Origin: an uncultured Bacilli bacterium
GTDB taxonomy: Bacteria; Bacillota_I; Bacilli_A; RF39; UBA660
DNA: 46,557 nucleotides
Reading direction: 5' to 3'
NCBI GenBank assembly: GCA_944331835.1
Contig: CALVIU010000004.1
Location: forward strand, 1-46,557
Part shown: positions 8,810-18,829 of the stretch, in pieces
How the letters are laid out: every line of letters begins with the position of its first letter
Numbering within the stretch: position 1 is the stretch's first letter
The notes under the pieces: model-generated
Seen by the model: the letters and a program-made list of their open reading frames with translations, nothing else
Database searches by the model: none
Told to the model about the DNA's origin: nothing
Position numbers and translations under genes: made by a program

Positions 8810-10288
8810 ATGGATGTAAGTTTAGAAACTTTAATAAATACCGTTTCTAGGTATAATTTATATGGTATAGAAAAGGTAAAGAAAGCTTATGAATTTGCTA
8901 AGATAAAGCATGCCGGTCAATATCGTGAAAGCGGCGAAGAATATATTACTCATCCTTTAGCAGTTGCCATTATATTAGCCAGATTGAATGCTGATACTGA
9001 TACAATTTGTGCTGGATTACTACATGATGTTATTGAAGATACTAACACCACCCAAGAGGATATAGCAGCAGAGTTTAGTTCATCTGTTGCTACTTTAGTT
9101 ATGGGGGTAACCAATTTAACTAGAGCATCTTTTAATAGTAAAATATCTTCTAATAATGCTAATTTACGAAAACTTATTTTAGGAATGAATAAAGATGTAC
9201 GTATTTTAATAATCAAACTTGCCGATAGACTTCACAATATGATGACCTTACAATACAAAAAAAATGTTGAAAAACAACATATGAAGGCAATGGAAACGTT
9301 AAGTATCTATGTCCCTATTGCTGAAGCGCTAGGGCTATATAATGTCAAATGTGATTTAGAAGATAAATGCTTTATGTTTTTAAAACCAGATGAATATAAA
9401 AAATATACTGATATTAGAAATAGATACAAAGAAAGTACCCAAAATTTAGTTGCAGAGGTAATCAGAAGAATAAATGAAGTCTTACTAGCCAACGATATTC
9501 CCAATACTATAAAATTTCGTTTGCAAAATGTTTATGGTATTTTTAAAAGTCTAATGTTGCGTGAATCACTTGAAGATATTCATGATTTTTTAGCTTTTAA
9601 AATTATCTTGGATGACATTGATGCTTGTTATTTATCCCTAAGACATGTTCATGAAACTTTTAAACCATTAACGCAATATTTTAAAGATTATATTAGTCTT
9701 CCCAAGCCTAATCACTATCAAGCTTTGCATACTACTGTAATTGGCCTTGAAAGTAAAATCTTACAAATGCAACTTAAAACTGCAAGTATGGAAAAAATTG
9801 CTAAATACGGTATAACTGATTTTTGGCATGGCGATGAAGATATCGGTGCCAAAGAAATGCAAGAGGCCTTAAAAGAAAATTATCATTTTTATAAAGCAGT
9901 CTTAGAAATAAACAAACTTGCAAGCAGTAATCAAGAATTTATTGAACTTATGAAGGATGAAGTTTTTGCTGAAAAAATCCATGTATTTACTAAAGATGGT
10001 ATTCTAATTGATGATTTAGCTAAAGGATCTACAGCACTGGATTTTGCATATCGTATTCACTCTGATATTGGAAATTCTATGGTTGCAGCTTTAGTAAATG
10101 GTAAATCTGTAAATTATGATTATGAACTAAAAGATGGAGATACTATTAGAATTATTACTGATTTCAATGCCGATGGTCCAACCAAAGAGTGGTTAAGTAT
10201 GGCTAAAACTGCTAGAGCTCACAAAAAAATAAGAGAATTTTTAAATAAACAAAAAAGAAATGGTCAATCGCGAACAAGATCACTTTGA
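8810..10288 (+). CDS. RelA/SpoT homologue: HD hydrolase, degenerate synthetase, TGS; no ACT domain
   Basis: Long RSH-type protein of 492 residues. The (p)ppGpp hydrolase (HD) site is complete: YRESGE (R39), H48, HDVIEDT (H72-D73), and LADRLHN (D139, N143). The synthetase region keeps D259 and Y303 (NHYQALHTTV), but the catalytic glutamate of the usual E-x-Q-I-R-T is glutamine (Q319 in LQMQLKT). The ATP-binding RPKHIYSIYRK segment reads RLQNVYGIFKS, losing key Lys/Ser positions. A TGS domain follows (about 389-450); the protein ends near residue 492 without the helical/ACT region of full-length Rel (about 730 residues). I infer a (p)ppGpp hydrolase with no synthetase activity. The start at 8810 follows GGGGTGGT; ATG 8795 lies upstream of that site. 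It overlaps the next gene end-to-end by 25 nt. Confidence 0.9.
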   Translation: MDVSLETLINTVSRYNLYGIEKVKKAYEFAKIKHAGQYRESGEEYITHPLAVAIILARLNADTDTICAGLLHDVIEDTNTTQEDIAAEFSSSVATLVMGVTNLTRASFNSKISSNNANLRKLILGMNKDVRILIIKLADRLHNMMTLQYKKNVEKQHMKAMETLSIYVPIAEALGLYNVKCDLEDKCFMFLKPDEYKKYTDIRNRYKESTQNLVAEVIRRINEVLLANDIPNTIKFRLQNVYGIFKSLMLRESLEDIHDFLAFKIILDDIDACYLSLRHVHETFKPLTQYFKDYISLPKPNHYQALHTTVIGLESKILQMQLKTASMEKIAKYGITDFWHGDEDIGAKEMQEALKENYHFYKAVLEINKLASSNQEFIELMKDEVFAEKIHVFTKDGILIDDLAKGSTALDFAYRIHSDIGNSMVAALVNGKSVNYDYELKDGDTIRIITDFNADGPTKEWLSMAKTARAHKKIREFLNKQKRNGQSRTRSL

Positions 10289-11181
10289 TAAATGTTCCTT
10301 TTTACCATTTCTTTATCTATTTCATTTAAAACACAAAACTTTTTAACCAACCATGTCGGTGCAATTAATTCATCGGCGATAGGGTCTCCAGTAATTCGTT
10401 CAACTACTATATTTTCATTTAAATATCTTAACTCTTCACACACGATATCGACATATTCATCCCGACTTAATACGTGAAAATTTTTCTTTTCATAAATACT
10501 CGCCAACTTTGTATTCTTAGGAATATATAACATATGAATCTTTATTCCATCTATTCCAAGATTATTTAAATATTTAACAGTATTTATCATATCTTCTTTA
10601 GTCTCATTGGGAAGCCCATTGATAATGTGAGCTACTGTAAATATGCTTCTTTCTTTAAGTTCCTTTACAGCCTCAGTAAAACACTTTACATCGTGACCCC
10701 GGTTGATATATTTAAGAGTATTATCATTGCTACTCTGAAGTCCTAACTCAATAGTTAAAAAGGTTTGTTTATTTAATTCACTTAAATAATCTAACCATTC
10801 ATCACTTAAGGCATCTGGCCTAGTTGCAATAGATACTCCTACAACTTTATCAATTACTAACAACTTATCAACCATATTTTTAAAATCTTGAATATTACCA
10901 TATGTATTAGTTCCCGACTGAAAGTAGGCGATATATAAACTGTTCGGCCACTTACGTTCCATAATATCTTTTGCTTTATTAAATTGACTAACAATATCCA
11001 TACTTCCATCACTAATGTTAGATGCACTTCTGCCACTGCAATATATGCAACCACCACTAGCATAATTTGGACAACTACTACCAATATCTAAAGGCACTTT
11101 AAATACTTTAGAACCAAACTTTCTTCTAAAAAAACAATTTAAAGTATAATATCTTTTATTATCGATTGTATTTTTAAACAT
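10264..11181 (-). CDS. YhcC/TIGR01212-family radical SAM protein
   Basis: Radical SAM enzyme of 305 residues. It opens with KRYYTLNCFFRRKFGSKVFK and then the cluster motif CPNYASGGCIYC, the unusual spaced cysteine pattern of the TIGR01212 group. It continues with FQSGTNTY, IATRPD and ELGLQSSND, all features of this family. The biochemical role is not established. The start at 11181 (MFKNTIDNK) is preferred because GGGTGATGGT lies just upstream; longer in-frame starts (to 11211) pass over that site. The upstream flank holds a tRNA fragment and terminator marking the edge of an island. Confidence 0.88.
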   Translation of the reverse strand: MFKNTIDNKRYYTLNCFFRRKFGSKVFKVPLDIGSSCPNYASGGCIYCSGRSASNISDGSMDIVSQFNKAKDIMERKWPNSLYIAYFQSGTNTYGNIQDFKNMVDKLLVIDKVVGVSIATRPDALSDEWLDYLSELNKQTFLTIELGLQSSNDNTLKYINRGHDVKCFTEAVKELKERSIFTVAHIINGLPNETKEDMINTVKYLNNLGIDGIKIHMLYIPKNTKLASIYEKKNFHVLSRDEYVDIVCEELRYLNENIVVERITGDPIADELIAPTWLVKKFCVLNEIDKEMVKRNIYQSDLVRD

Positions 11182-11220
11182 ACCATCACCCGACATTTCA
11201 TATTTTATCATATTCTAAAA

Positions 11221-11241
11221 TAAAAAGCCCATAAATACGGG
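11221..11241 (-). terminator. Hairpin with T-run downstream of the tRNA-Thr fragment
   Basis: On the minus strand GCCCG...TGGGC folds into a short hairpin followed by a T5 run. It closely resembles the hairpin downstream of the intact tRNA-Thr (18713-18735), so the copied segment extends past the tRNA 3' end. Confidence 0.6.
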
Positions 11242-11259
11242 CGAGTTTAGCATAATAAA

Positions 11260-11304
11260 TGGTGCTGGAAGCAGGATTCGAACCTGTGACCTATGCGTTA
11301 CGAG
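11260..11304 (-). pseudogene. 3' half of tRNA-Thr (attachment-site copy)
   Basis: The minus strand reads the anticodon loop CTCGTAA, the 3' anticodon-stem strand, variable loop, T-arm (TTCGAAT loop), acceptor 3' strand TTCCAGC and CCA. The 5' half (acceptor, D-arm, anticodon-stem 5' strand) is missing. The 17 nt at 11288-11304 are identical to 18782-18798 in the intact tRNA. The break at the anticodon loop is what a tRNA-targeting tyrosine recombinase leaves. Confidence 0.85.
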
Positions 11305-11397
11305 AACTATATTTTCATTTTTAAAAATTCTCACTTTATTTAAAAATAGACCTTTTTAAGGGCTTTTTTTGAATTTTTTTAAAATTTTTCAAAAAAA

Positions 11398-11424
11398 AAT
11401 AATGTGTTTTTATCACATTATTTT
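11398..11424 (-). terminator. Terminator downstream of the integrase remnant
   Basis: A perfect 9-bp stem (AATAATGTG/CACATTATT, 7-nt loop), with a run of nine T on the minus strand. It also has four T on the plus strand, so may act both ways. Confidence 0.7.
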
Positions 11425-11440
11425 AATGCGCTTTTTGTTA

Positions 11441-11461
11441 ATTCGCGACATTTTCGCGACA
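11441..11461. repeat. Left copy of the 21-bp island-end repeat
   Basis: ATTCGCGACATTTTCGCGAC plus A matches 18641-18661 with one mismatch in 21 bases. The unit itself contains TCGCGAC twice as a short direct repeat. It lies just beyond the integrase stop and may be a recombinase arm site or a remnant of a duplicated end. Confidence 0.6.
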
Positions 11462-11478
11462 ATAAAATTTTTACCTTT

Positions 11479-11967
11479 TTATAGTGCTTGTATAAGAAAT
11501 TCATCACCATATTTTTGTTTATATTCATCTAATTTATCCCATACGTTGTTAATGTCTAATTTGGATATATCAAGACTTTTAAAGATTGGATATTTTCGTT
11601 CTATATGTTCCTTTAATAATTTTATTTTTTCTTCTTCAGATACTAAAGTATTATGGAATATGACCTTATATAGTTCGTTTATCTCTTTGGTTGGGGCAAA
11701 GTTTATTCCATCGTATAAAGACAGCAACTGATTAAAATTAATTTTTATTATATTGTTATCATAATATTTATCAAAAACGCTAATTACCTTTTTATTTTTC
11801 TTTTTGTTTGCATGAGTATAAATAAAAGTGGTTGATAGTTGAGAGTGTCCCATGACTTCTTTAACTGTTGATGGACTAACATCTGGATTTTCATTTATTT
11901 GCATAATGCAATAACTATGCCTTAGACCGTGTAAAGTTACTTTTTTTAATTCATCAATATATCTTAA
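11479..11967 (-). pseudogene. Truncated tyrosine recombinase/integrase (C-terminal part)
   Basis: The readable frame runs from just after a stop codon (11968-11970) and holds the catalytic C-terminus only: the HxxR box as HGLRHSYCIM, then EVMGHSQLSTTFIYTH with the second histidine and the tyrosine nucleophile (the Y of IYTH). The N-terminal arm-binding and core-binding domains and the first catalytic arginine are missing. An ATG within the fragment at 11904 would drop the HxxR box, so no functional start exists. A long helical tail of about 110 residues follows the tyrosine, which is unusual for the family. The neighbouring tRNA 3' half identifies it as the remnant of the island's integrase. 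Confidence 0.82.
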
Positions 11968-12240
11968 TCAAATGATCAATATTGATTTTACCAACAAATA
12001 TATCGATATCAGGAAAAAGACAAATTGGTATATTTTCATCATAATATTTATAATCAAGTAATTGTTGAATTGTGTACTTTGGAGTTGATAATATTTTTTG
12101 TTTTAGTATTATTATCTCCACTACTTTGTAAAAAACAATATTTACAACCATTTGGACATCCTAAAATTAAATTTACTGCTAACCAGCTTTAATACATTTC
12201 AATAACTGCCATAACCCTATCGCTTCCTAATGGCTTATAG
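11954..12240 (-). pseudogene. Remnant of a radical SAM gene
   Basis: Reading the minus strand, KPLGSDRVMAVIEMY is followed by an in-frame stop, then AVNLILGCPNGCKYCFLQ with a perfect CxxxCxxC cluster motif. After about 15 more residues the frame ends and similar-looking sequence continues in another frame (TIQQLLDYKYYDENIPICLF to about 11954). One stop and at least one frameshift within 290 nt mark it as decayed. The GC-x3-C-x2-CFLQ context recalls spore-photoproduct-lyase-like proteins, but the family is uncertain. Confidence 0.6.
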
Positions 12241-12315
12241 TATAGTATGAAAAAAGCAGTTTTCTTCACTGCAATTTTACAATTACATTTGCATATTTGA
12301 AACCAATTATAAAAT

Positions 12316-12352
12316 AGAAAGTTAGTTAAACAATTTATTTAACTAACTTTCT
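12316..12352 (-). terminator. Terminator of the radical SAM-HprK-HelD operon
   Basis: A perfect 15-bp inverted repeat (12316-12330 with 12338-12352) and a 7-nt loop that contains the helD-like stop codon. A TATTTTAT tail follows on the minus strand. Confidence 0.75.
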
Positions 12353-14500
12353 TGAACTGGGAAATTCTCTTGTAATATTAAAAACTGGACATAATTCTTT
12401 ATCGTAAAGTATCTCTAATTTATGTAATGCTCTAGTACATGCAACATATAATAAGTGCATATCAACATTATCATTAATATCATATGTATTGCTTGAAGCA
12501 TCGTTGATAATTACTGCATCAAATTCTAACCCCTTTGCCAAAGCACTTGTAACCACACAAATACCACCATTATATTCATTGTCTTTAGCGGTAATATGTG
12601 TTGCATCAATATTTTCACTAATTAGACTATCATAAACCTTTTTGGCTTCTTTTTCATTTTTACAGATTATTGCAATTGTTTTATAACCTTGATTTTGCAA
12701 TTCTAGTATTTTATTTACTTTATAACTATTGTTTTTAGTTTTTTCTTCAATTAATACCGAATCACCATGTCTAATTACTGGTGTGGCATCTGGTAATCCC
12801 AAACAATACAAAATATTATTAGCATTTTCAGTAATTTCTGCAGTTGTTCTATAACTTCTATCAATTTTTATTAACTCACAATCACCATTAAAAATGCTAT
12901 CGCCAACTTCTTCCCAATTTGCAATACTTCGATATGAATATATTGATTGAGCTAAATCACCATATATCGAAAATGTACTATTTGGAAACATTTCTCTTAA
13001 CACTGCAAAATGAAACAATCCATAATCTTGAGCTTCATCAATTACAATATGACGATATTGATTATCATTACCATGTAGCATATAATTTAAATGTAATAAT
13101 GGTGCCATGTCTTCAAAAGAAATTTTCTTTTTTCTTAATAATCCGAGCGTATCATTTTGTAATGCAGTTATTTCCGCTTCTGTTATGTCATCAGCATATA
13201 ATTGTATATTTGCTACAAAAATTTTGTATAAGTCTAAAACTTTAACATTTAATTTTTTAAAATATTCTCTAATATACTTTACTCCCTTATTTTTAACAAA
13301 GTCGTATAGTTTTTGACTTTCTTCAATTGCTTCAATTCTCTTTGGATCATTTTTTGGTAAATTAATATAAATTTTACGATATTTTTCATTTAGTTTTTCA
13401 TAAATCTCATTCATATTATCCTTATATTTTTTCACAAAATAATTACAAGCGGAAGCAAAATTAGGATAATTTGATGAAGCGGTAAACAAAAGGTTTCTAA
13501 TTTCTTGTCTACTAAATATTTCTTCTCCATCAATAATAATTCCTTTACCAACAATATTAAAATCAAGATAATCTTTAATAAATTTATCTAAAGCATTTTT
13601 ATATCTTAATGAGGATTTAAAATTTCTAACAGCTTTTATTTCTTCGCTTACATAACTAGTGTCATCTACAGTAAATTTTTCACCCAAAATATCGTTTAAC
13701 ATTTCCAAAAATGTTTTTTGTTCTACCGGAGAAGTTTCTAATTCAGGTAATATTGAAGAAATATAATTCAAGAAATATTTATTAGGACCTATAATCAAAA
13801 ATTCAGTAGATTTGATTTTATTTTCCAAAGCATATATTAAATATGCTATTCGGTGTAATGCTACTGATGTTTTTCCAGAACCTGCAACGCCTTGAACTAT
13901 AATATTATCAGTTATTGGCTTTCTTATTATTTGGTTTTGTTCTTTCTGAATTGATGCTATTATTGTTTTCATTTTATTATCAGCATTTGTTGACAAATAT
14001 GGTTTAAGCAATTCATCATTTGTAACCAAACTTGTATCTTGAACATCAATTAATTCACTATTTTTTATATTTATTTGTCTCTTTAAATTTAATTTACCTG
14101 TAACAACTCCCATTGGGCTATTGTATGCAACATCTCCCAACTCACTATCATAATACAAACTACTTATTGGAGCTCTCCAATCAGTTACTAAACTTTCAGT
14201 ATCAGAAGAAATCCCCTTTCTTCCAATATAAATTTTTTGACTATTATCTGAATCAGTTAATGAAAAATCAATTCTTCCAAAGTAAGGAGTAGGAATAGAT
14301 CGTTTTAAAGACTCAATTCTTTCTGTAGCATCAGATGCTTTAGCATTAATATTAAAATGCTCTCCTCGTTTTCTATCCTCAAAAGACAAAGAAATACCAG
14401 TTTTATGTAATTCTCGTAATTTTTCTTCTTCCTTTGCTATTTCTATATCAATTTTTTCTAAAACATGATCCAAATATTTCTTTTCTTCTAAATCTATCAT
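12335..14500 (-). CDS. helD: HelD-like RNA polymerase recycling ATPase (UvrD/Rep superfamily 1)
   Basis: Protein of 721 residues. A charged N-terminal coiled coil (residues 1-50) matches the HelD arm that enters the RNA polymerase secondary channel. The segment VTDWRAPISSLYYD and a long insertion in the first motor domain are also HelD-like. Motor motifs: GVAGSGKTSVALHR (Walker A), VIDEAQDY, FSIYGDLAQSIYSYR, IDRSYRTTAEI, ALAKGLEFDAVII and YVACTRALHKL. Known HelD proteins release stalled polymerase and nucleic acid, and some (HelR) displace rifampicin. It is the last gene of the island operon: the HprK-like gene ends 19 nt upstream. AGGAGGTTAATA supports the start. Assignment to HelD rather than a DNA-repair helicase rests on the N-terminus and DWRAPI motif. 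Confidence 0.85.
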   Translation of the reverse strand: MIDLEEKKYLDHVLEKIDIEIAKEEEKLRELHKTGISLSFEDRKRGEHFNINAKASDATERIESLKRSIPTPYFGRIDFSLTDSDNSQKIYIGRKGISSDTESLVTDWRAPISSLYYDSELGDVAYNSPMGVVTGKLNLKRQINIKNSELIDVQDTSLVTNDELLKPYLSTNADNKMKTIIASIQKEQNQIIRKPITDNIIVQGVAGSGKTSVALHRIAYLIYALENKIKSTEFLIIGPNKYFLNYISSILPELETSPVEQKTFLEMLNDILGEKFTVDDTSYVSEEIKAVRNFKSSLRYKNALDKFIKDYLDFNIVGKGIIIDGEEIFSRQEIRNLLFTASSNYPNFASACNYFVKKYKDNMNEIYEKLNEKYRKIYINLPKNDPKRIEAIEESQKLYDFVKNKGVKYIREYFKKLNVKVLDLYKIFVANIQLYADDITEAEITALQNDTLGLLRKKKISFEDMAPLLHLNYMLHGNDNQYRHIVIDEAQDYGLFHFAVLREMFPNSTFSIYGDLAQSIYSYRSIANWEEVGDSIFNGDCELIKIDRSYRTTAEITENANNILYCLGLPDATPVIRHGDSVLIEEKTKNNSYKVNKILELQNQGYKTIAIICKNEKEAKKVYDSLISENIDATHITAKDNEYNGGICVVTSALAKGLEFDAVIINDASSNTYDINDNVDMHLLYVACTRALHKLEILYDKELCPVFNITREFPSSRKLVK

Positions 14501-14519
14501 TATTAACCTCCTGATATAC

Positions 14520-15515
14520 TTATTTTTTTAAAACAAGTTTTCTTATAATATTTGTAAATTCTCTTGTTGTATTTTCATTTTGTCTACAACTATAACTTGG
14601 TATATTAATTGCTTCTTCTAATGTAATGTTTCGATTTATTTCCCTACCTAGTTGTATGTCCCTAAAGAAAATGGTAGTATCGTGAACTAGGCTCATATAT
14701 TGGTCTAAAATTAAATCACGAACTTGCTCAGGTTTTAATCTTTGAAATACAGGTTGTTCAATAAATGGATCATAAGTAGGAGTTATAATACATGTGATAG
14801 GAGCATCAAAAACTTGTTTTACATTATTTAAAGAAGCAAGCTCATTATCATTTAAAACAATATTATTTCCTTCAAGCATATTCTTATTTTTAATGGCTAT
14901 TCCTCTTTCTAAAGCCAGTTTAACATATTTTTGATTTTCTGGCCGTGCACAAAATTGAGGGCTGAGCCTAATTGATACAGACTGTGCAATACCATATCCC
15001 ATCATTTGTTGCCCATTGTATTTTAATGCGATTTTATCATTTGTAACGCTATTGAATCCATTATTCATTAAATTTAACATGCAAATTGTTTTGCCACTAT
15101 TTCTTCCAGCAACAAACAATACTCCATTTCCATTTTGTTCCACACAAGATGAATGTACACCTAGATATCCATCTATTTCCAAAAATCTATTAAATAAATT
15201 AGCAACAAAATATTGAATTAAAAAATTTCTATACTCTATTGTGCTAGCCTGAAAATTTGTTGCAAAACACATTTTAGAACTATTATCAATATAACAATCT
15301 AAAGTTGCATTATCAAACCATTTATCTACCATCCTATAATATTTTCCATTTGGTTTTGAAATATTTTCGGATATAATCAATGTATAAGTCGGATTACTAT
15401 TACACTTGGAAAATAACAAATGATTTTTGAAATGTTCTTTAATTAGTTGTTCAATATATTCATCACAAATTATATTTAATACAATATTATTATACACTAA
15501 ACTAAACTCTTTCAT
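14520..15515 (-). CDS. HPr-kinase-like P-loop protein of a modification operon
   Basis: Protein of 331 residues resembling the HprK C-terminal kinase domain found in peptide-modification clusters. Visible: GVHSSCVEQNGNGVLFVAGR with a conserved histidine (H121), Walker A variant AGRNSGKT (136-143), and the following NGFNSVTNDKIAL where the usual catalytic DD is ND (159-160). The N-terminal 115 residues are unlike HprK's regulatory domain. Such HprK-like proteins occur with lasso-peptide and radical SAM clusters; at least one (in the paeninodin cluster) phosphorylates its precursor peptide. It lies 15 nt downstream of the SPASM gene and 19 nt upstream of helD, all on one strand, so it is probably co-expressed with them. 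Kinase activity is an inference. Confidence 0.72.
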   Translation of the reverse strand: MKEFSLVYNNIVLNIICDEYIEQLIKEHFKNHLLFSKCNSNPTYTLIISENISKPNGKYYRMVDKWFDNATLDCYIDNSSKMCFATNFQASTIEYRNFLIQYFVANLFNRFLEIDGYLGVHSSCVEQNGNGVLFVAGRNSGKTICMLNLMNNGFNSVTNDKIALKYNGQQMMGYGIAQSVSIRLSPQFCARPENQKYVKLALERGIAIKNKNMLEGNNIVLNDNELASLNNVKQVFDAPITCIITPTYDPFIEQPVFQRLKPEQVRDLILDQYMSLVHDTTIFFRDIQLGREINRNITLEEAINIPSYSCRQNENTTREFTNIIRKLVLKK

Positions 15516-15530
15516 TTTGCCTCTTATATT

Positions 15531-16661
15531 TTACTTTAAGTTTCTTTTCAACGGACAAAGCGGATCAACATCATCTAAATTTCCTAATTCAAATAACACT
15601 CTAGCTCTACAACCCCCACGACAAACTTTATAATTAGAACATTTTTTGCAAATTTCATTTCCTTTAATATTAGATACTTGTAAACTTTTTTTCCAAAGTT
15701 CACTATAATCATCATTTTTTATATTTCCAATATTAAAATCACTTCCCCAAAAAATACAAGGAGAATAGTTTCCTATTTCATCTATCCAAACTGCTTCTTT
15801 TCCACAGTGACATCCAAAACCATTTGTTCCTATCCAAAATTTATTATTGGGCATATTTGGATAAACAATTTCAATTTTATTAGATTTGATTTTTTTCATA
15901 TTATCTAGAAATCTAATATACTCATCTTGATTAATTGTTAAATCTTTACCAACAGCTCGTCCAAACGATAATAGAGGTGTATATCTAACTAAATCTATAT
16001 CATATTTTTCAGCAATTTTCAATAAATCATCTACCTCATCTATATTATATTTATTTATAGACATTCTTAAAGCTGTCCTACCTTTATAATATTTTTTTAA
16101 CAATTGAAGAGCTGCAATTGTTTTATCAAATGTGCCTTTCCCCCTTAATTTTTCATGATTATCTTTCATTCCTTCAAAACTAACCCATAAATAATCTACA
16201 TCTAAATTATTTAGTCTTTCAATAATTTCCTTTGTCAACAATAATCCATTTGTAACTATAGAAACGGCCAATTGTTTTTCTTTTCCATATTCCAAAATAT
16301 CAAACAAATCGGTTCTTGTAAATGGCTCACCTCCGCCTAAGCATATAAAGAATGTTCCATTTTCTACCATAGAATCAAATAAATTATACATATCCTTTGT
16401 TGTTAGCTCTTTATCTTTTAAATTTCCAGAATCAGAAAAACATTGTATACATCTTAAATTGCACTTTTTCGTTAAATTCATTGAAATCTTTAAAGGAGCA
16501 CTAATAGAATTTTCTCTACCATTATTTATTAACTTATACTCACCATCAAGCATTTTTTTTATTTGATTAGCAACATTTTTGTCATAATAAAACTCCTTTT
16601 TCATTTTAGAATCATATACTCTAATTCCAAAATATTCTTCTACTATAAAATATCTTTGCAT
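15531..16661 (-). CDS. Radical SAM/SPASM peptide-maturase-like protein
   Basis: Protein of 376 residues. A short N-terminal segment (1-55) resembles a degenerate PqqD/RRE-like leader binder. The radical SAM cluster motif is CNLRCIQC (C67, C71, C74), followed by CLGGGEPF, IVTNGLLL and VSFEG. The C-terminal SPASM domain has CHCGKEA, YSPCIFW, CKKCSNYKVCRGGCRA and DPLCP, enough cysteines for two auxiliary Fe-S clusters. This layout is typical of enzymes that cross-link or epimerise ribosomal peptides (PqqE, AlbA, sactisynthases) and anaerobic sulfatase maturases. The start follows AAGGAGGGAAA and overlaps the end of the upstream radical SAM gene by 19 nt. No precursor peptide gene is visible. Confidence 0.85.
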   Translation of the reverse strand: MQRYFIVEEYFGIRVYDSKMKKEFYYDKNVANQIKKMLDGEYKLINNGRENSISAPLKISMNLTKKCNLRCIQCFSDSGNLKDKELTTKDMYNLFDSMVENGTFFICLGGGEPFTRTDLFDILEYGKEKQLAVSIVTNGLLLTKEIIERLNNLDVDYLWVSFEGMKDNHEKLRGKGTFDKTIAALQLLKKYYKGRTALRMSINKYNIDEVDDLLKIAEKYDIDLVRYTPLLSFGRAVGKDLTINQDEYIRFLDNMKKIKSNKIEIVYPNMPNNKFWIGTNGFGCHCGKEAVWIDEIGNYSPCIFWGSDFNIGNIKNDDYSELWKKSLQVSNIKGNEICKKCSNYKVCRGGCRARVLFELGNLDDVDPLCPLKRNLK

Positions 16662-17803
16662 TTTCCCTCCTTATACTTTATTGATGTTGTATGTCCATTT
16701 TTATGTGCATCTAAATTTTTTCCACAAGTTCTCGAGCAACATTTTGGTTTGCCGCTTTTTATTGAATTACATTTAAAATTTTTAACTAATTGTTCAAAAA
16801 AATAGCCATTAACTATTTTCTCAATAGAATTATCAAATGCTGACAAGTTATCCTTAATATATAAATTATATTCATTCAACTCACTTACATCAGTTACATT
16901 ATGAACGGTTTTATAACAAACTTGCTGGTATACAGAACAACACGGAAATACTTCTCCCTTTGCACTAATAAAAATGCCTCCAGTTTTTAAAGCTTCACAA
17001 TCAATTTCATTCATGTCCAAATAATTGTCTATATTGCCATACCGTTTCATAAGCTCAAACATTTTATCTTCAGTACTATTTCGATATAATGGATTTTCTG
17101 GTAATTCAATATAATATTTAATATTTCCGTCATTATCATATACAGGATGCTTCCCATAATCAGCAATAGTACTATCTAGGTTACAATCCTTTTCATATAA
17201 GTTTTTTAAAAATCTGCTTGTTTTTTTTACTTGAAAACTTTTAAATCCTAATTCTTCACTTATCTTTTTTGCATCTTCAACTTGATTCTCATTATGTTTA
17301 AATACGATAAAATCCCATTGAGCTTTACCACCATTATTTATAAATGCACTTGCATTTTTTATTATTCTGTCATATTTCGTATTGCACCTATGAAGTGAAT
17401 GGATATCTCCAATGCCATCAATACCAAATATTACTGAGCAATTATAATCTTTTACTATTAAAGCTAAATCTTTCCACCAATTTTCATCATATAATCCACC
17501 ATTAGTATAAATATCTATATCAACATTATTATTACATTCATAAAAATATTTTAAAATTGCTTTTAAATCTTTATTACAAATTGGTTCGCCATATACTCCA
17601 CATATACTTATTAAATTTAATTTTTTTATAAAACTAGGTTTTAAAATTTTTTTGATATCATTTAAAGTCAATTCTAAAATTGACAAGTCCTTTCTCACCT
17701 TGCCTTTAAAATTCCTATTACACATAGGGCACATAGCATTACATTTAGTTGTTAGTTCTAAATGTAATCCACTTATATAATCATAAACAAAACCTTTTCC
17801 CAT
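16643..17803 (-). CDS. Second radical SAM protein of the island operon
   Basis: Protein of 386 residues. The cluster motif is CNAMCPMC (C21, C25, C28) very near the N-terminus after HLELTTK. ICGVYGEPICN replaces the usual GGEP motif, and IYTNGG and VIFGIDGI follow. The C-terminal part has GEVFPCCSVYQQVC and CCSRTCGKN, giving a SPASM/twitch-like auxiliary cluster site. It therefore differs clearly from the SPASM partner downstream; the two are not simple duplicates. It is the first gene of the operon; its ATG sits almost at the predicted transcription start and has no Shine-Dalgarno site. The substrate is unknown. Confidence 0.8.
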   Translation of the reverse strand: MGKGFVYDYISGLHLELTTKCNAMCPMCNRNFKGKVRKDLSILELTLNDIKKILKPSFIKKLNLISICGVYGEPICNKDLKAILKYFYECNNNVDIDIYTNGGLYDENWWKDLALIVKDYNCSVIFGIDGIGDIHSLHRCNTKYDRIIKNASAFINNGGKAQWDFIVFKHNENQVEDAKKISEELGFKSFQVKKTSRFLKNLYEKDCNLDSTIADYGKHPVYDNDGNIKYYIELPENPLYRNSTEDKMFELMKRYGNIDNYLDMNEIDCEALKTGGIFISAKGEVFPCCSVYQQVCYKTVHNVTDVSELNEYNLYIKDNLSAFDNSIEKIVNGYFFEQLVKNFKCNSIKSGKPKCCSRTCGKNLDAHKNGHTTSIKYKEGKCKDIL

Positions 17804-17810
17804 GAGTTTT

Positions 17811-17838
17811 ATTTTACACTATTTATTTTTTTTGTAAA
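17811..17838 (-). promoter_or_regulatory. Promoter of the island operon, apparently leaderless
   Basis: On the minus strand TTTACA (17838-17833), a 16-nt spacer, and TAAAAT (17816-17811). Only 7 nt separate the -10 box from the ATG at 17803, so transcription would start at or next to the start codon. Confidence 0.55.
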
Positions 17839-17892
17839 GAGTTAATTTGATATAAAACATTAATTTAATCAAAAAAAATGAATTTTTAGTTA

Positions 17893-18303
17893 TCACAAAT
17901 CCATTTTTTCCTTAACTGTTTTAAAATATAATCTAAAAGTATCTGGATAAGTAAGATTATTTGGTAAATCATCTGAAAACATAATTTTTGACATCTCATA
18001 ATCTTCTGGTAACTTTTCCATTTCCAAAATTTCACAAAAACACAATAAAGCAAAAGTGCTAATTTTATATACACTAACTGGAGTTACTTCAATTTTCGTT
18101 GCTCCAGTTTCTTCATACATTTCTCTTTTAGCGGCCTCTTGCCAAGTTTCCCCGCTCTCTATATGACCACCAGGAATTTCCCAACCATTTCTTTTTTTAT
18201 TATAACAAAATACATATTTACCATGGTAACGACATACACAAACTACTCTAGTGTATTCAGATTCATCACAATATCCCAAATCATACAATTTTACTTCTAA
18301 CAT
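17893..18303 (-). CDS. Nudix hydrolase (MutT-like)
   Basis: Soluble protein of 136 residues with a complete Nudix box from GHIESGE through REMYEETGA (residues 46-68), matching G-x5-E-x7-REUxEExGU. Preceding WEIPGG is typical of MutT/YtkD-like NTP pyrophosphohydrolases. The substrate, a nucleoside triphosphate or nucleotide sugar, cannot be told from sequence. The start is supported by GTGAGGTAA upstream. It lies inside the island upstream of the radical SAM operon but is separated by about 90 nt holding that operon's own promoter, so it is probably a separate transcript. Confidence 0.88.
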   Translation of the reverse strand: MLEVKLYDLGYCDESEYTRVVCVCRYHGKYVFCYNKKRNGWEIPGGHIESGETWQEAAKREMYEETGATKIEVTPVSVYKISTFALLCFCEILEMEKLPEDYEMSKIMFSDDLPNNLTYPDTFRLYFKTVKEKMDL

Positions 18304-18389
18304 ATTATTTACCTCACTATAAACAAGTTTATCATATTTATTAATTATTTTAAACTAGATTTTTTAAATTTTCATAATTTAACTATTAT

Positions 18390-18510
18390 TTATTTTAATA
18401 TATTTCTTAATTCATCAATAATAATAGTTTTAGTAATATATCCATCAAATCCCGTAAATAAGCATTTGCTTTTGGCATATCCCTAAGGTCACAATTGAAG
18501 CACATAAGCC
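18390..18510 (-). pseudogene. Decayed receiver-domain C-terminus
   Basis: The minus strand reads LFTGFDGYITKTIIIDELRN-ILK-stop (ending 18390-18392), the alpha4-beta5-alpha5 tail of a response-regulator receiver with the conserved lysine, here KT instead of KP. Upstream sequence (about 18464-18510) matches no continuous frame. No helix-turn-helix follows, so it may be the end of a hybrid kinase. The rest of 18304-18753 holds only the 21-bp repeat and the tRNA terminator. Confidence 0.5.
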
Positions 18511-18640
18511 TGTATATTCAGTTTTAAGTGGAATATAGTGTTTAATAACAAGCGTTTTTATACTACAAGCCACATAATTTTCTAAAAAAAATGATGTGAT
18601 TTTTTCGAAAAACAACGAAAATTTCAAACAAAAAGTAGGT

Positions 18641-18661
18641 ATTCGCGACATTTTTGCGACA
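18641..18661. repeat. Right copy of the 21-bp island-end repeat
   Basis: Matches 11441-11461 at 20 of 21 positions in the same orientation, exactly 7,200 bp away. It lies about 90 nt inside the intact tRNA-Thr. Confidence 0.6.
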
Positions 18662-18712
18662 CTTTTTTTGTCAAAATTGTGTGACACTCTAAAATTGAGT
18701 ATTTATTAAAAA

Positions 18713-18735
18713 TAAAAAAGCCCGCAAATACGGAC
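18713..18735 (-). terminator. Terminator of tRNA-Thr
   Basis: Minus-strand hairpin GTCCG...CGGGC (5-bp stem with one G-T pair) followed by a T-run at 18719-18713, about 20 nt beyond the tRNA CCA end. Confidence 0.65.
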
Positions 18736-18753
18736 AAAAACAAGCATAATAAA

Positions 18754-18829
18754 TGGTGCTGGAAGCCGGGCTTGAACCAGCGACCTATGCGTTACGAGGG
18801 CATTGCTCTACCAGCTGAGCTATTCCAGC
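18754..18829 (-). tRNA. tRNA-Thr (anticodon CGT)
   Basis: Full cloverleaf on the minus strand: acceptor GCTGGAA/TTCCAGC, D-arm GCTC...GAGC with AGCTGGTA loop, anticodon stem ATGCC/CGCAT with loop CTCGTAA, variable AGGTC, T-arm GCTGG-TTCAAGC-CCGGC, discriminator A and encoded CCA. The last anticodon-stem pair (31-39) is C-C, a slight irregularity. It is the likely integration target of the island. Confidence 0.93.

Follow-up and report, generated by a model that had tools for sequence, protein, structure and literature searches.

A tRNA-Thr island of an uncultured Bacilli bacterium with an operon of radical SAM enzymes, an HprK-like kinase and a terminal HelD: possible production of a small molecule directed at RNA polymerase

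The window analyzed here, the entire 46,557-nucleotide stretch of contig CALVIU010000004.1 from an uncultured Bacilli bacterium (host genome 1.25 Mb, 91% complete), contains a genomic island with genes for a NUDIX hydrolase, two radical SAM enzymes, a P-loop protein with a predicted HprK/PEPCK kinase fold and a class I HelD, an RNA polymerase recycling factor. The NUDIX-SPASM-HprK core of this gene set recurs in other genomes, and HelD proteins of the same clade have been recruited repeatedly to the ends of short enzyme operons. The parts are ordinary but their recurrent combination is unusual; a literature search with weak, mostly open-access coverage identified no relevant report that connects HelD to a biosynthetic cluster, or HprK to radical SAM enzymes. 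The best explanation, which we favor tentatively and rate a little below an even chance, is that the acquired operon makes a small molecule, nucleotide-like or of another kind, that interferes with RNA polymerase and that HelD would provide self-protection.

The integration target is tRNA-Thr (CGT) at 18754-18829 (minus strand). The attachment site at the 3' end of this tRNA (18743..18798, minus) has a directly repeated copy, corresponding to the 3' half of the tRNA, at 11249..11304 (minus); the two 56-nt repeats are 89% identical, with longest exact runs of 24 and 17 nt. Next to the distal repeat is a remnant of a tyrosine integrase (11479..11904, minus; C-terminal part only), with matches to Phage_integrase (2.1e-4, below the cut-off) and TIGR02249 (5.7e-6) and with an HxLRH box immediately upstream in another frame. 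The remnant adjoins a decayed radical SAM gene fragment of unassigned family (11954..12190, minus), with the motif CPNGCKYCF in a broken frame. Thus, the tRNA 3'-half repeat around the cargo, the integrase remnant and the radical SAM fragment delineate an island, about 7.5 kb long and inserted at tRNA-Thr, that also encloses the NUDIX gene (17893-18303). The preliminary description, which placed the operon in an island, is borne out in this respect, even though it had missed the tRNA-Thr, the 56-nt repeats, the integrase remnant and the NUDIX gene.

In most congeners examined, tRNA-Thr is found near MnmL without island cargo. One congener (G651; loci L130 and L132) retains a remnant of the island, in which tRNA-Thr is accompanied by NUDIX and by the N-terminal 60 residues of rSAM1, a radical SAM gene of the window operon. 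This remnant is 97-99% identical to the window at the DNA level, whereas MnmL of the same genome shares just 78% identity, a difference that points to recent transfer. The tRNA-Thr and the island (window 10264-18829) are inverted relative to MnmL, the two genes being divergent in congeners. Two other congeners (L101 and L112) carry a serine recombinase gene near the same tRNA-Thr/MnmL site, so that this site may be an integration hot spot.

The operon comprises four minus-strand genes, rSAM1 (16643..17803), SPASM2 (15531..16661), HprK-like (14520..15515) and helD (12335..14500), all located as originally described; an overlap of 19 nt and gaps of 15 and 19 nt follow from the coordinates. The intrinsic terminator proposed at the end of the operon is real (12316..12352, minus) and strong for its composition (z = -6.0; 0/200 shuffles equally stable). 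Its stem, initially given as a perfect 15 bp, measures 17 bp (12352-12316). The stem-loop is followed by ATTTTAT and contains the HelD stop codon. The single promoter proposed for the operon corresponds to TTTACA-16-TAAAAT at 17811..17838 (minus), immediately upstream of rSAM1; this is a consensus match only (10/12), and promoter-like sites are about equally frequent in shuffled sequences (67 observed in the region vs 55 +/- 7.7).

The domain identities of the two radical SAM proteins hold. SPASM2 contains the CxxxCxxC motif and the full 7-Cys SPASM pattern, both read from the sequence, and matches PF04055 (3e-25) and PF13186 (24.9 bits vs a cut-off of 21.5); it has no relatives in the viral collection searched. 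A viperin identity was rejected for this protein, given the match to mycofactocin MftC at 7e-46 vs pVip at 6e-25 (values from different libraries) and the presence of the SPASM domain. rSAM1 matches Radical_SAM, with a sub-threshold SPASM/twitch match. Its homologue on Nocardia plasmids is 34% identical; on two Nocardia farcinica plasmids (L144 and L145), the neighborhood of this homologue includes a phosphoketolase, a mandelate-racemase-type (enolase-family) enzyme, a HAD protein, methyltransferases and further radical SAM proteins. The fifth gene, NUDIX (17893..18303, minus), is conserved together with SPASM2 and HprK-like, and its family is also found alone within the genus.

The HprK-like protein (331 aa) shows weak sequence similarity to Hpr_kinase_C (0.0076) and TIGR04355 (2.3e-6) and does not reach the cut-offs of the HPr kinase families (TIGR00679, 17.6/240; PF07475, 16.2/33.3), so that it differs from HprK/P in family membership by sequence. 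Nevertheless, it shares with the HprK/P and PEPCK kinases the Walker A GKT, a conserved ND and the predicted fold: its structural model (pLDDT 88) matches HprK/P with Z 13.8 (1ko7_A, 134 residues, VIA) and PEPCK with Z 13.4. Thus, the P-loop protein is predicted to adopt the kinase fold that had been supposed for it. By context, it is probably a small-molecule kinase.

The product of the last gene (721 aa) scores 468.9 bits with the HelD_BACSU profile NF041464 (curated cut-off 419), and its nearest solved structure is that of B. subtilis HelD (6wvk, 4e-98). In the AlphaFold model (pLDDT 86), 687 residues align to 6wvk_H, spanning residues 1-713 with the N-terminus included, and an N-terminal helical hairpin (4-36 and 47-68) is predicted with the acidic residues E41, D42 and E47 at or near its turn. 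The model thus combines the N-terminal secondary-channel arm with the SF1 helicase core, in agreement with the original assignment to HelD, and the protein does not group with the DNA-repair UvrD helicases. Specifically, a UvrD/PcrA repair helicase was rejected (TIGR01075, 54.6/1144 bits; TIGR01073, 50/911 bits), as were the matches to GajB, which reflect the common UvrD helicase core.

The B. subtilis class I HelD shields RNA polymerase from rifampicin, for which the N-terminal arm is required, and the arm-tip residues D56, D57 and E60 matter for this protection (PMC12802891). The window HelD has in common with it the score above the family cut-off, the full-length fold and the predicted acidic-tip hairpin; E41, D42 and E47 may correspond to D56, D57 and E60. 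The two proteins differ in that the region N-terminal of the shared core is about 30 residues shorter in the window HelD than in 6wvk and in that the window gene ends an island operon of radical SAM enzymes and a kinase. HelR and the actinobacterial class II HelD proteins, which displace rifampicin, belong to the same superfamily, share the general role, and the HelR models match the N-terminus; however, the scores of the window protein stop well short of the cut-offs for HelR and HelD_MYCSM, and it is of class I.

The preliminary description held that its reading would be refuted if the four operon genes did not occur together elsewhere. Taken literally, this applies to the exact set, which was not found in the family genomes searched: rSAM1 was not detected in the other 140, and close relatives of SPASM2 are present in only two (G261 and G110) and on one Clostridia contig (L094). 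What is conserved is the core, NUDIX + SPASM2 + HprK-like, which is kept in these three genomes, all lacking rSAM1, along with the habit of HelD to join such operons (see below). The gene order in G261, adenosine deaminase - NUDIX - SPASM2 (frame broken) - HprK-like, is as in the window, and SPASM2 is convergent with NUDIX and HprK-like in G110 and L094. The G261 SPASM2 orthologue (L014:11148-12282) is split by a frameshift that reflects either decay or an assembly error. No HelD is encoded near the core in the DNA seen of these genomes (for G110 and G261, this DNA amounts to short contigs), and therefore HelD is not obligatory for the pathway. The window operon is the NUDIX-SPASM2-HprK core together with rSAM1 and HelD. 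A search of the genome contigs with the single HprK-like protein detected no relative, and a search of plasmids with the HprK-like protein of L055 yielded no match.

HelD is encoded in 60/145 family genomes, and the copies split into two clades, one of which (clade A; 23 copies, support 100/100) includes the window protein. Clade B genes are mostly found among housekeeping genes (TsaD/TsaE, PGM, Obg, L10). In clade A, helD frequently closes short enzyme operons with radical SAM, B12-radical SAM, HprK-like, NUDIX, pyrophosphatase, PNP phosphorylase, APH kinase and glycosyltransferase genes; its upstream neighbors include Radical_SAM (11/72), B12-binding (6), NUDIX (6), pyrophosphatase (5), PNP phosphorylase (3) and APH (3) proteins. 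The length of the predicted tip varies within the clade, being greater in the window protein, L015, L051 and L052 than in the rest. Counted per locus, the contrast between clades A and B is moderate and no more than borderline (12/23 vs 4/22, Fisher p 0.029; 10/21 vs 4/22, p 0.055, after removal of two loci that had not been sampled through HelD). Two stronger points are independent of this sampling. First, a query with the B12-radical SAM protein identifies a SPASM / PNP / HprK / B12-radical SAM / PPase operon in 4/141 genomes, with HelD in the last position in 4/4. These four loci (L054:9157-16204, L055:8748-15591, L060:3608-11132 and L019:521-9505) form one operon family of the order SPASM / PNP phosphorylase / (cytidine deaminase) / (DUF4406-like) / HprK-like / B12-radical SAM / inorganic pyrophosphatase / HelD, which resembles a nucleoside-type pathway. 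Second, a single clade of the HelDs of this operon type together with that of the partial operon L066, a group defined with the tree already in view, is rejected (AU p 7.8e-7); thus, HelD was gained or exchanged on more than one occasion at one and the same position. In addition, of nine accessory HprK-like loci identified through sequence searches, three lie only a few genes from a clade A HelD, with a chance of about 3e-7 by a rough estimate in which genomes have about 1,150 genes and the events are independent. Taken together, the clade A contexts and the operons ending in HelD support the proposal that HelD accompanies biosynthetic operons, and the comparison of loci links it to what appear to be cryptic small-molecule operons.

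As to the chemistry, proteins related to the HprK-like protein and to the window HelD accompany nucleoside, SAM and sugar enzymes. Around the related HprK-like genes, there are adenosine deaminase (G261), PNP phosphorylase, cytidine deaminase, a DUF4406/deoxyribosyltransferase-like protein, an MTAD-like amidohydrolase and a SAM synthetase, the MTAD, SAM-synthetase and deoxyribosyltransferase names resting on our reading of the sequences. The HprK-like gene of a conjugative Parageobacillus plasmid (NZ_CP040554.1; L096) is accompanied by genes for methionine adenosyltransferase, myo-inositol-1-phosphate synthase, SurE and NUDIX; this cluster, which also includes PqqD and HAD genes, has the appearance of a pathway to a carbocyclic or SAM-like nucleoside. 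These neighborhoods, with that of the rSAM1 homologue on the Nocardia plasmids, point to small-molecule metabolism. On the other side, NUDIX is the sole nucleoside-type enzyme in the window island, and its family also occurs by itself in the genus, both of which count against the preferred explanation. The most economical reading is that the product would be a nucleotide-like small molecule, because the NUDIX protein, the nucleoside enzymes and the protection of RNA polymerase then fit together. There is a parallel by enzyme kinds with nucleoside antibiotic pathways that contain radical SAM enzymes (blasticidin S with BlsE, oxetanocin): the related operons likewise pair B12/SPASM radical SAM proteins with phosphorylase, deaminase and N-glycosidase-like enzymes, although no homologous gene set emerged.

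The gene set had originally been read as a RiPP system, with a modified peptide as the product and HelD as immunity, the precursor being encoded elsewhere; the nearest known systems would be SynChlorMet-like (ScmC/E/F) cassettes or the lasso-peptide kinases. The usual substrates of SPASM radical SAM enzymes are peptides, the window operon has in common with the SynChlorMet cassette an HprK-like protein (ScmC) next to SPASM radical SAM enzymes (ScmE and ScmF), and there are weak matches to ScmC (6e-4) and to ScmE/ScmF. However, the scores are far below the cut-offs (19.1/125, 109/400 and 86/400 bits for ScmC, ScmE and ScmF, respectively), so that membership in this cassette was rejected, and, unlike SynChlorMet, the window yielded no short peptide or PqqD-like partner in our searches. 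The search for small conserved ORFs beside the operon, suggested at the outset, revealed none across the four core loci compared: only shadow frames of conserved genes matched, and these precursor candidates were rejected. PqqD (PF05402), the RRE type covered, has no match in the 91%-complete genome at E up to 1, and neither a transporter nor a leader peptidase or other protease is encoded in the window island. With no precursor, PqqD, transporter or protease, the RiPP reading is not supported, and we consider it improbable; a precursor peptide may nevertheless be distant or lineage-specific. Slightly less probable still is an anti-phage role, in which viperin-like chain-terminating nucleotides would stop the phage polymerase while NUDIX and HelD clear the stalled transcription of the host. 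The operon is the cargo of a tRNA island, SPASM2 matches the pVip profiles (5.9e-25) and viperin-like structures, and HelD removes stalled polymerase (PMC8655204). The pVip match, however, reflects the common radical SAM core, with mycofactocin, NirJ and heme enzymes scoring higher, and the island carries no other defence gene. Viperins, moreover, are not known to carry a SPASM domain.

A stronger competitor, if on balance an unlikely one, is that HelD is a general polymerase-recycling or drug-tolerance accessory that is parked at the ends of operons and bears no relation to the product of its neighbors. This possibility is compatible with the absence of a nearby HelD from the core in the three relatives, the limited spread of HelD among the family genomes, the clade A copies with housekeeping neighbors (L057, L063, L067 and L068) and the spread of the HelD family via horizontal transfer (PMC8655204). 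Against it, HelD closes all four operons of the B12-radical SAM type although these HelD proteins do not form one lineage, and the adjacency of HprK-like and HelD genes is far above chance.

Under the preferred explanation, an operon for a polymerase-directed small molecule with self-protection by HelD, the horizontally acquired island would have brought in the NUDIX, rSAM1, SPASM radical SAM and HprK/PEPCK-fold kinase genes together with the terminal helD. A small compound, probably nucleotide-like or sugar-phosphate-derived, would be built or activated by the kinase and both radical SAM enzymes, while NUDIX might trim a nucleoside-diphosphate intermediate or remove toxic product that has gone astray. 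RNA polymerase would be hindered by this compound, either as such or once activated, and the class I HelD made from the same transcript would protect or recycle the producer's own polymerase.

The repeated occurrence of clade A HelD at the ends of small-molecule operons suggests that the respective products block transcription. More speculatively, and with greater doubt than attaches to the explanation of the window operon, one HelD clade could be a resistance marker for a large, unrecognized set of nucleotide-like transcription inhibitors made by small-genome relatives of this bacterium. If so, operons of different chemistries would each have recruited HelD as self-immunity, and the position of HelD could guide mining for RNA polymerase inhibitors, a resistance-guided route to new compounds in uncultured bacteria. 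Such a role would also suggest one reason why many bacteria have multiple HelD paralogues and would make the part played by the HelD arm in immunity directly testable.

Two further arrangements of HelD genes were observed. In L059 (274-4693), a tandem pair of clade A HelD genes lies behind a run of APH kinase genes and genes for a GT61 glycosyltransferase and for a PHP protein. A clade B HelD belongs to a cassette present in three genomes (L057:16342-19999, L081:7581-12944 and L084:6525-11883), which consists of a 533-aa SPASM protein, a 209-aa P-loop protein, HelD, a protein of about 180 aa with the motif GSSCVKYIL, and a HAD phosphatase.
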